This document shows, piece after piece, positions 41,398-46,101 of a DNA stretch of 64,000 nucleotides (position 1 is its first letter; each line of letters begins with the position of its first letter). The notes under the pieces are model-generated. The model was given only the letters and a program-made list of their open reading frames with translations. It did no database searches and was not told the DNA's origin. A program made the position numbers and the translations under genes. Source of the stretch: Actibacterium pelagium (lineage in GTDB: Bacteria > Pseudomonadota > Alphaproteobacteria > Rhodobacterales > Rhodobacteraceae); contig NZ_NSBU01000004.1 in NCBI RefSeq assembly GCF_002285415.1, positions 496,001 through 560,000 of the forward strand, given 5' to 3'.

Positions 41398-42405
41398 TCA
41401 GGTCTTGGTGGGCAGCCCGATCCGGTCCAGCGCCTGATCCAGAGGGTCGGGGTTGGAAATGTCTAGTCGGACGGGCAGGGTCAGCACTTTCATCCGAAAG
41501 GCATCGGGCAGGCGGACGGCGTCTTTTTCCGTGGTAACCAGTTGTGCGCCAAGGGTTTTCGCATCGTTCGACAGGCGCTGCATCAGGGCGGGTGTCAGGG
41601 GTTGGTGGTCCGACAGGGCCTCGGCGTGCAGCACCTCGGCGCCGATCAGGCGAAGGGTGGCAAAGAACTTCTCTGGGTGGCCGATGCCAGCAAAGGCCAG
41701 AACCCGCTGACCTTCCCATGGCATCCCCGTAAATAGCGGTTTTAATTGACCTTTCAGGTGGGGCAATGCGATCTGCGAGCCCCATGTTTCGGCAAAGCGG
41801 TCCTGCGCATCGTCTGGCCCGATCGACAGAACCAGATCGCCGCGCGCCATGCCGGCTGCGACGGGCTCTCGCAGGGGGCCAGCGGGCAGGCAGCGGCCAT
41901 TGCCAAAACCCTTGGCCGCATCCACCACGATCAGTGAAAGGTCCTTGTGAACCAAGGGGTTCTGGAACCCGTCGTCCATCAGGATGACGTCGGCACCGGC
42001 CTCTACGGCCTTCACAGCCCCGGCGGCGCGGTCCTTGGCGACCCAGACCGGTGCAAAAGCAGCCAGCAGCAAGGGTTCGTCACCAACCTCGGCCGCCGTA
42101 TGGCTGCGCGGGTCGACTTGGATTGGGCCTTCAACACTGCCGCCATAGCCACGCGACAGGAACTGCGGGTTGTAGCCCTGCGCGATCAATCGTTCGGCCA
42201 GCGAGATGGCAGTGGGCGTCTTGCCGGTGCCGCCTGCATTCAGGTTGCCGATGCAAATCACGGGGACCGACAGCTTCAGCGGCGTCCCCTTGGCAAGCCG
42301 CCGCGCCGTTGCCCGCGCATAAAGCGCCCCCAATGGGGCCAGCGCCAGCGCACGCGGGTCGATAGAGGACGGCGATTTGTACCAGAACCGGGGCGGCTGC
42401 ATCAC
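41398..42405 (-). CDS. lpxK: tetraacyldisaccharide 4'-kinase
   Basis: 335 residues. It phosphorylates the 4' position of the lipid A disaccharide at the inner membrane. The N-terminal membrane-associated helix, Walker A at about 53-63 ([12 protein letters not shown]), [11 protein letters not shown], and [22 protein letters not shown] are intact. ATGA overlap with the upstream waaA-like gene places it as the last gene of an envelope operon. Confidence 0.95.
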
Positions 42406-43646
42406 GATGCCTTCCTTTTGGCGACCTCTGCCAGGATCACGTCAGAGATCAGCGCCGTCGCCTCGGCGCTTTTGGTGGCGAGATCCCAAGCGGCATGGGC
42501 CATCTGCGCCACTTTGTCAGCTGCCTGAAGCTCGATCAATACGCGCGATAGCTGGTCGACGTCGCGCACCACCCGCGCGGCACCGGCCCGATCCAACTCT
42601 TGGTAGTCGGACGCAAAGGTGCCAAAGCGGGGACCGTGCAGGATGGCGGCGCCAAGGGACGCGGGGACAAACGGGTCGCTGGACCCACCGACGCCGCGCA
42701 GGGTCTGGCCGATAAAGGTCAGGGGGACGATCCGCGCCCAAAGGGCGTCCTCTGCCGGAACATCGGCGATGACGATCTGGGTCTCGGACTGGATTTTCTG
42801 ACCTGTCGAGCGCTGAACGACCTGCCGACCCTGTGCTCGGGCTTTTTCGGTCATCGCGGCGGCTCGCTCGGGCGAGGATTGCTGGACAACCAGAAGGCTG
42901 CGGTGTGCCTTTTGCGCAGTGCGCTCATAGGCGGTCAGGATGATGTCTTCTTCTTCCTCGCTCAGATCAGATGCCAGCCAACTTGGGCGGCCAGCCAGTT
43001 GCGCGGCCAAGGCCTGACTGGCGGTGGTATCGACCGGGTCGGGGGCCGGACGGTTGGGCAGACAACCGGTGACAAGGCTTCGCCCCGAGGGCAGTCCCGC
43101 CAGATGCAGGGTATGCGCCTGCGCGTCCGTCGCTGTCAGAACGGTGGACACCTGCCGCAGCAACCCACGCAGCACAAGGCGGCTGGCATCGCCAAACCCG
43201 TGATCGCCCGGTTGTTCGGTCGGCGCGTAGATCAGGACGCAGGCCCCAGAGGCGCGCAGCTTCAGCAACAGGCCGGGGTCGGCCAGCTCGGCGAAGATCA
43301 GCGCGATCGGCGGTTCCCAGTCGCGCAGGAAATTGCGCATGGCCTGAGCGCCATCAAGGGGCGCATCGAGGCGCAGCAGGTCTGGGGGTGCATCTTCGGC
43401 CACAAACCCATCAGGGTGGGTCAGCAGAACCGGCAGTTCGGGGTTGCCGTTGATCAGATCCGCAGCGACGTCTTGCGCTGGAATTGCCCCGGCCTTTGGT
43501 GCGTGGATCCAGACCAGAACCTCTTCCGGGGACAGGATGGTCTGACGCTCTTGCAGGGCAGGAGCGTCGGGGCCGCGCACCAGTCGGGCGCGCAGCTGAG
43601 ACAGTCGCAGCGCAAGGCTGGACAGAATGCGGGTTAGAAGGCTCAG
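42402..43646 (-). CDS. Kdo-transferase-like protein with lost signature motifs
   Basis: About 414 residues. Overall layout and length match WaaA/KdtA (N-terminal ligand domain [14 protein letters not shown]-terminal GT-B domain [24 protein letters not shown]), and it sits beside lpxK, the family's usual place. The catalytic Glu of the normal SVGE motif reads AGA (about 52-54), the THxGEE stretch reads DLSEEEE (about 227-233), RHPER reads QSSPER, and HNPLEP reads SSDPFVP (about 322-328). It may not be an active Kdo transferase. No ATG is near; a CTG at 43646 overlaps the DUF4170 stop, so the start is uncertain. Confidence 0.65.
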
Positions 43647-43885
43647 CCGAGTTCCTCGGTCGAGCTGGCTGCGGCTTCTTCGTCCCGCAGGCGGTGCAGA
43701 TGCGCAATGAAATAGCGCATATGGGCGTTGTCGACGGTGCGCTGAGCTTCGGCCTTCCACGCATCATAGGCGGATTGATAGTTCGGGAAGATGCCGACGA
43801 TGTGAATATCGTCCACGTCTTTGAAGACAGACTTGGTCGGGTCGACCAGTTCGCCGCCGAAGACCAGGTGCAGTCGTTGGGCCAT
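43643..43885 (-). CDS. DUF4170 domain protein
   Basis: 80 residues: MAQRLHLVFGGELVDPTKSV, FPNYQSAYDAWKAEAQRTVDNAHMRYF. A small cytoplasmic protein conserved in alphaproteobacteria next to lipid A genes; its function is not known to me. It lies 69 bases after the IMPase gene and overlaps the waaA-like gene by 4 bases. Confidence 0.85.
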   Translation of the reverse strand: MAQRLHLVFGGELVDPTKSVFKDVDDIHIVGIFPNYQSAYDAWKAEAQRTVDNAHMRYFIAHLHRLRDEEAAASSTEELG

Positions 43886-43954: not shown

Positions 43955-44725
43955 TCAGGCCAGCCGTTTGATGGTTTCGGCGTGAAGCGCCCCCGCCGTG
44001 GCGACGATGCCTTGAGATTGGGCAACTGGCGAATTGAAAGTCAGGTCCGCCCCGGTTTTGTCGGTGGCGGCCCCGCCAGCTTCGGCGACAATCACCGCCC
44101 CGGCGGCGATGTCCCAATGCCACGTGTCGCGCAGGGTCAGCATCGCGTCAAAGCGACCCTCGGCCACAAGGCACAAACGGTAGGCCAGAGAGGTGCGGAA
44201 ATGGCGTTGGACGTTCGGCATGTCACGCCAGTGATGCGCCTGAAACGTGGGTTTAGCGGCCAGAATGTCGGCCCCGTCCAGCGCGACCCGGTCCGAGGTC
44301 TGGATAGCTGCTCCGTTCAGCGCGGCGCCAGCCCCAATCGCGCCCGTGTAAAGCTTGTCGAGCGCAGGTAGGTAAACGACCCCGGCGATGGCGCGCCCGT
44401 TCTGGACAAGGCCGATAGAGGTCGCAAAGGTTGGTTCCCCATTCAGAAACGCGCGGGTCCCGTCGATCGGATCCACGACGAACACCGTATCGGCCTGCAG
44501 ACGTGCAAGGTCGTCCTCGGTTTCTTCGGACAGCCAGCCATAGTTCGGACGGGCATCGGTCAGTATTTCACGCAGGGCGCGGTCCACGGCGATATCGGCC
44601 TCGGATACGGGGCCTTGGCCATCGGATTTCTCCCAGACTTCCGGAGAGTTCCCCCAAAAATGGGTGGCAATGCGCCCGGCCTCTTTCGCAGCCTCGATCA
44701 GAAGGGGCAGGTCACTTTCCGGCAA
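43955..44725 (-). CDS. inositol monophosphatase family protein (CysQ-like)
   Basis: 256 residues. Lithium-sensitive phosphatase fold: metal-binding LSEETEDD (about 66-72), D85-PID88-GT, and the C-terminal WDIAAGAVIVAEAGG. The substrate could be 3'-phosphoadenosine-5'-phosphate (CysQ role), inositol phosphate or histidinol phosphate; sequence alone does not decide. Its start overlaps the upstream pmbA gene by 14 bases. Confidence 0.87.
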   Translation of the reverse strand: MPESDLPLLIEAAKEAGRIATHFWGNSPEVWEKSDGQGPVSEADIAVDRALREILTDARPNYGWLSEETEDDLARLQADTVFVVDPIDGTRAFLNGEPTFATSIGLVQNGRAIAGVVYLPALDKLYTGAIGAGAALNGAAIQTSDRVALDGADILAAKPTFQAHHWRDMPNVQRHFRTSLAYRLCLVAEGRFDAMLTLRDTWHWDIAAGAVIVAEAGGAATDKTGADLTFNSPVAQSQGIVATAGALHAETIKRLA

Positions 44726-46058
44726 GGGTCAGACCTTCGACCAGAAGCGAGGGGATCGGGCGCGACAGGTGCATCCGCGCGTCATTTCCGGGGATCAGCG
44801 TCTTCAGCATGTCGCGCAGGTTGCCCGCGATGGTGCATTCGTTGACGGCATGGGTGATCTCGCCGTTTTCAACCCAGAAGCCAGCGGCGCCCCGGGAATA
44901 GTCGCCGGTATTCGGGTTGATCGTCGCCCCGATCATCGAGGTCACCAGAAGGCCCGTGCCCATCTCGGCGATCAACTCGTCGCGCGTCTTGTCGCCAAGC
45001 GTCAGGCTAAGGCTGCCCGCGCTGGGCGAGGGCGGGGCGGTGGTGCCGCGTGCTGCATGCGCGTTGCTGGTCAGGCCAAGCTGGCGGGCCGTGGCCAGAT
45101 CCAGCACCCAGTTCTTCAGAATACCGTCTTCGACAAATGTTACTTCGCGGGTCGCCAGCCCTTCACCGTCGAAGGGTTTTGATCCCGCGATCCGTGCCCG
45201 ATGCGGGGATGATGTCAGCGACATGCCTTTGGGCAGTACCTGCTCTCCCATCGCGTCCAGCAGCCACGATGATCCCCGCGCGACCGACACGCCATTGATG
45301 GCCGAGGTCAGATGCGCAATCAGCGAGGTCGAGATACGTTCATCAAACAGCACCGGATAAGCGCCGGTGGCCGGTTGCCGCGCATTAGCGCGGGCCAGGG
45401 CGCGTTCGGCGGCCTGCTGGCCGATCGATTCCGGCGACGGCAGATCGTTCTGATAGATGCGGGCCTCGCCGGCGAAGTCACGCTCCATATTCGCGCCGGT
45501 GCCGGTGATGGCAGAGCAAGAGATGCCCCGATCCGTCCGGGCGTAGCCGCCGGAAAACCCGTTGCTGGTCGCCAGATGGATTTGCTGGTGGCTATAGCCA
45601 GCGCTTGCGCCTTCGACCTGCGAAATCCCATCAACAGCAAGGGCCGCGGCCTCGACCCGTTGGGCGTCATCCTGCAGGGCCGCGGGCGAGGGTTCGTCTG
45701 ACGGGTCCGCCAGTTCCAGCGCCGCGACATCCCAGTCGCTTGCCAGTTGGTCAGGCTCGGCCAGACCGATATAGGGATCCTCGGGCGCTTCTTTCGCCAT
45801 GGCCACGGCGCGTTCGGCCATCGCCTGCATCGTGGCAAGGCTGGTGTCAGAGGCCGACACGCAGGCCTGACGTTTGCCGATCAGCACCCGAAGACCCAGA
45901 TCAATCCCCTCTGACCGCTCTGCCTGTTCCAGCGCCCCGCCGCGCACGTCGATGGAAATCGCAGTGCCCTGTACGGCCAGCACATCGGCGGCCTCGGCAC
46001 CTGCGCGTTTGGCGGTTTCCAACAGGGTTTGGGTAAGCGTGTCTAGCGATTGCGTCAT
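44712..46058 (-). CDS. pmbA: TldD/PmbA family metalloprotease subunit
   Basis: 448 residues from the ATG at 46058 (an ATG 15 bases upstream is possible). PmbA (TldE) works with TldD to cut small peptides such as antitoxins and microcin precursors. N-terminal domain VDVRGGALEQAERSEGIDLGLRVLIGKRQA; C-terminal GTGLLVTSMIGATINPNTGDYSRGAAGFWVENG is the family mark. PmbA lacks the HExxxH of TldD, as here. tldD is not in the window. Confidence 0.92.
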   Translation of the reverse strand: MTQSLDTLTQTLLETAKRAGAEAADVLAVQGTAISIDVRGGALEQAERSEGIDLGLRVLIGKRQACVSASDTSLATMQAMAERAVAMAKEAPEDPYIGLAEPDQLASDWDVAALELADPSDEPSPAALQDDAQRVEAAALAVDGISQVEGASAGYSHQQIHLATSNGFSGGYARTDRGISCSAITGTGANMERDFAGEARIYQNDLPSPESIGQQAAERALARANARQPATGAYPVLFDERISTSLIAHLTSAINGVSVARGSSWLLDAMGEQVLPKGMSLTSSPHRARIAGSKPFDGEGLATREVTFVEDGILKNWVLDLATARQLGLTSNAHAARGTTAPPSPSAGSLSLTLGDKTRDELIAEMGTGLLVTSMIGATINPNTGDYSRGAAGFWVENGEITHAVNECTIAGNLRDMLKTLIPGNDARMHLSRPIPSLLVEGLTLAGK

Positions 46059-46101
46059 AAAGGGGCCCTTCAATGCGTCCCAATGGACCTAGGTCAACAA
46101 A

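Follow-up and report, generated by a model that had tools for sequence, protein, structure and literature searches.

The closest characterised relatives of the protein described here are the WaaA (KdtA) enzymes of family GT30, represented by Aquifex WaaA (structure 2xci) and E. coli WaaA (b3633). In passages of PMC6286764 on the Aquifex enzyme, E31 is given as the catalytic base, E98, K162 and R212 are tied to activity, and N273 and E276 are CMP contacts, with E276 binding the ribose. The waaA-lpxK pair is an often-found cluster, and the passages on this cluster in PMC3087551 do not mention duplication of waaA. Two annotated waaA copies with the same lpxK neighbourhood as at our locus are already in print: a section of PMC11225332 lists 'two copies of kdtA, waaA' in Tritonibacter mobilis AK171, the locus tag of one adjoining lpxK (GM002500/GM002501) and the other lying beside lpcC. 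This arrangement resembles our genome by annotation alone, and that section of PMC11225332 gives both copies as transferases and leaves motif loss unmentioned. A further GT-B protein for comparison is KdoT of Acinetobacter baumannii, whose role is inner-core assembly; according to parts of PMC12856342, KdoT transfers the third Kdo, works without an essential catalytic base and has not been placed in any characterised family of glycosyltransferases. By title or abstract, we found in the open-licence literature no description of a motif-less WaaA paralogue that is family-wide and under selection.

The gene analysed here, which we call WaaX or the slot copy, resembles WaaA in its full-length fold, its PF04413 match and its place beside lpxK. 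Unlike WaaA, it lacks the catalytic-base, Kdo-positioning and CMP-phosphate residues, and a motif-bearing WaaA is encoded elsewhere in the same genome. On balance, we think it probable that WaaX is a displaced ancestral waaA that now assists lipid A/core assembly without catalysis.

A WaaA homologue with altered motifs beside lpxK

The window (the whole stretch of 64,000 nucleotides of Actibacterium pelagium contig NZ_NSBU01000004.1 that was analysed) carries the gene order pmbA-suhB-DUF4170-WaaX-lpxK on its minus strand. These genes encode a PmbA/TldD family protein (44712..46073; PF19289, E=8.5e-67), an inositol monophosphatase family protein (suhB/hisN/cysQ-like; 43955..44725; PF00459, E=1.7e-50), a small protein of 80 residues known from its reading frame, which we take to be of the DUF4170 type (43643..43885, directly upstream of WaaX), WaaX itself (42402..43646; 414 codons) and the tetraacyldisaccharide 4'-kinase LpxK (41398..42405; PF02606, E=1.2e-97; TIGR00682 above cut-off). 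Most slot loci have a DUF4170-type homologue in this position. WaaX ends with TGA at 42404-42402, and the junction sequence places the lpxK start, GTG at 42405 or ATG at 42402, in overlap with this stop. The true start of WaaX is uncertain and may be CTG 43646 or GTG 43760: no ATG, GTG or TTG stands at 43646, where the frame opens with CTG, and the first listed start in this frame is the GTG, which belongs to a longer frame. A CTG start is possible, since CTG 43646 overlaps the stop of the DUF4170-type gene (CTGA) and GAGGA lies a few bases upstream (43640-43660, minus strand).

Sequence models assign WaaX weakly to the GT30/WaaA family, with a match to PF04413 (E=1.4e-7, 31.7 bits; Pfam cut-off 23.9). 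The best NCBIfam WaaA model reaches 116.6 bits (1.2e-33), below its cut-off of 617; the second WaaA of the same genome also falls under its own equivalog cut-off (302.1 versus 438), so these cut-offs do not discriminate here. At the sequence level WaaX further matches the WaaA C-terminal domain in the PDB, 4bfc, with E=3.4e-9. An AlphaFold2 model (mean pLDDT 88.3, pTM 0.82) has Aquifex WaaA 2xci as its best PDB match (Foldseek E=3.7e-15), and the two superpose with Z 29.7 over 344 residues at 3.6 Å and 16% identity in the structural alignment. The CMP-Kdo domain 4bfc superposes with Z 25.4 over 190 residues at 2.0 Å, and the next GT-B proteins reach Z 20-23 (top 22.6) with larger rmsd. WaaX is thus predicted to have the two-domain GT-B fold of WaaA, matched along its whole length.

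Alignment with E. coli WaaA bears out the claim of the preliminary description that the SVGE, RHPER, THxGEE and HNPLEP motifs are all altered; to call them all gone would overstate the case, as fragments (PER, EE, a single G and P) are left in WaaX. Among 16 signature residues that we picked from conserved columns, WaaX keeps one and the second copy of the same genome keeps 15. We located the columns of Aquifex G30, E31, E98, R212, N273 and E276 through the alignment and an inferred numbering offset of 21, and K162 by conservation. Of these seven literature residues tied to activity or CMP binding, WaaX keeps only the glycine (G59): it has A, A, P and S at E31, E98, K162 and R212, and D and V at the CMP contacts N273 and E276. 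The second copy itself has T in the N273 column, so this position is not strict. This upholds the earlier view of a WaaA homologue without active-site residues at the waaA position beside lpxK.

Motif-poor copies across the family

We sampled 100 genomes of the family, one per genus, of which 94 have an lpxK match. The slot next to lpxK holds a motif-poor copy in 80 of these 94, a canonical WaaA in ten and no GT30 gene that we could find in four, where a remnant shorter than 80 residues would escape detection. By this sample, naming the slot gene waaA would be wrong in most genera of the family. The 80 motif-poor and ten canonical slot copies were aligned with 78 rows of copies found elsewhere in the genomes (68 loci of 67 genomes, with 16 further genomes that have such a match left out), 13 class outgroup sequences and E. 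coli WaaA. The median number of signature residues kept is 2 in motif-poor copies (range 0-6), 16 in canonical slot copies (15-16), 15 in elsewhere copies (11-16) and 15 in the 13 class outgroups (14-16).

The individual columns tell the same story. The 80 motif-poor copies keep G30 in 7 cases, E31 in 4, E98 in 12, K162 in 1, R212 in 5, N273 in 10 and E276 in 49; none of E31, E98, K162 and R212 is kept in 62 of the 80, and no copy keeps more than two. In 58 copies from named species, which partly overlap the 80-genus sample, the corresponding counts are 15, 1, 1, 0, 2, 8 and 51, and 54 copies keep none of the four residues tied to activity while 4 keep one. As judged from these columns, the donor-phosphate and catalytic residues are gone almost everywhere in motif-poor copies, whereas the ribose-contact glutamate (E276/E338) is often kept (49/80 and 51/58), though not in WaaX. 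Since this glutamate is kept, many motif-poor copies may still bind a nucleotide. Sequencing error or frameshift is an unlikely cause of the motif loss: the frame is open, and similar losses occur in 79 other motif-poor slot copies.

A second, motif-bearing WaaA

A search for a second waaA in the window's genome, as the preliminary description had proposed, was positive. The second clear GT30 gene lies on the same contig (G000:C4:755795-757027), about 217 kb from WaaX, and carries the motifs HGASNGE, ENEIW, STHPGE, PRHP and GGHTPFEP. The genome also has lpxK, together with kdsA (371 bits) and lpxC above their cut-offs; kdsB scores 152 bits, 3 bits below the curated cut-off of 155.2, and among the 18 genomes that have a kdsB match, the best one falls under this cut-off in 14. 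Given the second copy and the presence of kdsA, kdsB, lpxC and lpxK, the core of this genome probably begins with Kdo. The earlier suggestion of a core oligosaccharide that is built differently, and with it a core without Kdo, finds no support here. Annotation by gene order or PF04413 would call WaaX waaA and may miss the working copy.

The same division holds across genera. Another PF04413 match above 100 bits is present in 77 of the 80 motif-poor genomes versus none of the ten canonical-slot genomes (Fisher p=5e-11, ignoring relatedness), and the E-value-sorted matches behind these counts extend well below 100 bits. We read elsewhere copies from 61 of the 77 genomes, and every one keeps 11-16 of the 16 signature residues. 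Neighbours of the window's type, which we take from translated frames to be FmdB-, NUDIX- or LysC-like, recur at 21 of the 67 other elsewhere loci, so in part of the family the elsewhere copy sits in a common genomic setting. The intact elsewhere copy probably does the Kdo-transfer job.

The motif-poor slot genomes G041, G045 and G050 show no other GT30 copy above 100 bits, and a canonical-WaaA profile found none further. G041 is the single genome examined from its genus, and G045, in which kdsA has no match, is a fragmented draft. G050 belongs to genus g51 (G050, G120-G123; L049, L276, L279-L281), where the motif-poor copy is the only GT30 match in all five genomes, which are drafts of 68-100% completeness. 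These genomes have lpxC (5/5), kdsA (3/5) and KpsC/KpsS-type genes (PF05159; 5/5), and lpxK adjoins the motif-poor copy, as seen for G050. An assembly gap that hides a canonical waaA in all five is unlikely.

Genus g51 is the main reason to consider that WaaX remains a lipid A Kdo transferase working by a different route, with the second copy adding further Kdo or serving another polymer. We regard this as quite improbable. The ten canonical-slot genomes, with a full or nearly full site, have no second match above 100 bits, whereas nearly all motif-poor genomes do. Kdo also has another likely user in g51, the KpsC/KpsS-type genes, and kdsA and kdsB occur together in G067 and G105, both without an lpxK or WaaA match. 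A different account of g51 is that the displaced WaaA became, in most genera, a dedicated non-catalytic partner that controls lipid IVA or hands it over from LpxK to the incoming WaaA, and that g51 then lost the active partner, so that its lipid A would have no Kdo or a different linking sugar. This is a speculative and rather unlikely scenario. Genus g51 makes a question testable: is there Kdo on lipid A in a bacterium with lpxC and lpxK and without canonical WaaA?

Origin of the motif-poor copies

Quick trees were built from 24 of the 80 motif-poor copies, the ten canonical slot copies, 36 or 33 of the 78 elsewhere rows, the 13 class sequences and E. coli WaaA, with SH-aLRT as the only support measure and long branches in play. 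The motif-poor copies fall into a single clade (SH-aLRT 99 and 98) within a group that includes seven of the ten canonical slot copies (98 and 96); G004, G017 and G092 are the canonical slot copies that fall outside it. A smaller tree recovers the motif-poor clade (98) and its union with the slot group (95). WaaX itself sits on a long branch (1.8-2.5), and its position inside the clade is weak. A recent duplication of the elsewhere copy, which would unite motif-poor and elsewhere copies, was rejected on the smaller tree (p-AU 0.003), in a test whose groups were named after the first tree had been seen and whose rows omit nine of the 24 motif-poor copies (most of the longest) and E. coli, and include 15 of the 36 elsewhere and seven of the 13 class rows.

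Two shared residues point to an origin in the slot lineage, as the trees do. W387 (window numbering) is present in 80/80 motif-poor and 7/10 canonical slot copies and in 0/91 other copies; R249 is present in 79/80, 3/10 and 4/91, respectively. The descent of motif-poor copies from the slot lineage is thus well supported by these comparisons. The elsewhere copies are scattered in the tree, with five label changes, two of them forced by starred branches, and since they fall in several places this suggests that the displacement drew on different WaaA lineages.

When LpxK, SuhB and PmbA serve as a proxy for the species tree, the canonical-slot genomes L048, L093 and L106 nest among motif-poor ones, which may reflect a later return of a canonical copy to the slot or parallel loss in the others.

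Constraint on the motif-poor form

A scan of named genomes, at least 575 relatives, left 80 loci, in 78 of which lpxK lies directly downstream of the slot gene; the other two stretches have no LpxK match. From these we drew 27 pairs, each locus being used once, in order of increasing LpxK dS and within dS limits; going by record titles, none includes the species or genus of the window. In the five closest named-species pairs (LpxK dS 0.20-0.57), dN/dS is 0.048-0.165 for the slot copy and 0.076-0.214 for LpxK. Over all 27 pairs, of which the later ones are near saturation, the slot copy and LpxK have medians of 0.26 and 0.27, respectively, and a maximum of 0.62 each. The motif-poor form is thus shown by these codon comparisons to be under purifying selection in close relatives. 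The combination that marks a pseudoenzyme, active-site loss across orthologues with purifying selection, is therefore found here.

These data also bear on whether the slot copy could be a decaying relic, kept only as a frame that leads translation into lpxK. WaaX and lpxK overlap by one base in 47 of the 80 motif-poor slot copies, the window's included, and by four in seven; a possible lpxK start lies within five bases of the WaaX stop in 64/80 genomes and 13 bases upstream in nine more, and the four lpxK regions where no GT30 gene was found would also fit such a relic. However, a leader role requires an open frame, not the residues that are invariant in 80/80 genera at 34% mean identity. The low dN/dS in close pairs and the confident predicted fold likewise argue against decay, as does the fact that none of the 90 slot genes detected is truncated; all 80 motif-poor copies have an open frame of 362-428 residues. 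Of the readings considered here, decay is the least credible, and we give it very little weight.

Constraint is uneven along the protein. Mean column entropy of the C-domain is 1.91 in motif-poor versus 1.90 in motif-bearing elsewhere copies, and that of the N-domain 2.62 versus 2.00; canonical slot and class copies taken together are tighter in both domains (1.65 and 1.57). We found no special co-evolution with LpxK beyond shared descent (partial Mantel 0.26 versus 0.30 for PmbA and 0.41 for SuhB). The rate of LpxK at empty-slot loci permits no inference of faster evolution (z=-3.1 for L125, -1.4 for L119 and -1.1 for L126; canonical-slot loci reach -3.5).

A non-catalytic role or a rebuilt enzyme

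We propose that WaaX is the family's ancestral lpxK-linked waaA, superseded in its function by a WaaA encoded elsewhere in the genome. The slot copy would then have lost its CMP-Kdo-binding and catalytic residues while staying in the operon just ahead of lpxK, where purifying selection would still maintain it as a folded GT-B protein. It probably acts without catalysis, in an accessory or regulatory capacity, at the hand-over of lipid IVA from LpxK to the active WaaA. It is well supported by the genomic comparisons that the old waaA was displaced, that it lost its Kdo site and that selection has retained it. That WaaX does not transfer Kdo and has a non-catalytic role is what we infer from the loss of donor and putative acceptor site residues, with constraint mainly in the C-terminal domain; the partner and step are a guess from operon position alone.

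The main rival to a non-catalytic accessory is an active glycosyltransferase whose rebuilt site uses a different donor or acceptor, such as one of the later core sugars, and manages without the WaaA base, perhaps via conserved arginines. Loss of motifs does not prove inactivity, since KdoT is a precedent for a base-free inverting GT-B enzyme (PMC12856342, in the parts cited above). Purifying selection in close pairs resembles that on LpxK, and polar residues of the C-domain are near-invariant (R220 80/80, E232 74/80, R249 79/80, R305 77/80); R220, E232 and R305, however, are inherited, being present in 9, 10 and 10 of the ten canonical slot copies, and only R249 is new among these. In 35 of the 80 motif-poor copies an acid (D or E) occupies position 59, which adjoins the lost base, yet no new acid or base is shared at the E60, E130 and R269 columns. 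Similarly, the widespread ribose-contact glutamate would suit an enzyme, but WaaX itself is without it, and the N-domain, thought to bind the acceptor in WaaA, is the relaxed half. We therefore regard a rebuilt enzyme as possible, though doubtful.

This family offers a many-genus natural experiment in enzyme displacement, in which the original gene is kept in the operon and under selection after its active site has gone. Should WaaX prove to be regulatory, it would add to lipid A/core assembly a point of control that the E. coli picture lacks.

Other observations on GT30 genes in the family

We further note that G105, assembled as one contig, has kdsA, kdsB and KpsC/KpsS-type genes; it may lack LPS, since it has no lpxC, lpxK or WaaA match. 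In G067, G080 and G106, lpxC is present, and there is no lpxK or WaaA match.

A further GT30 type occurs in tandem with canonical waaA in ten of the 68 elsewhere loci examined (L151, L152, L154, L158, L160, L161, L163, L170, L175 and L183) and singly in L172 and L179. It keeps six of the seven literature residues, and the K208/K162 lysine is missing in 12/12; the sole elsewhere copy of G118 is of this type. This type may transfer a second Kdo-like sugar.
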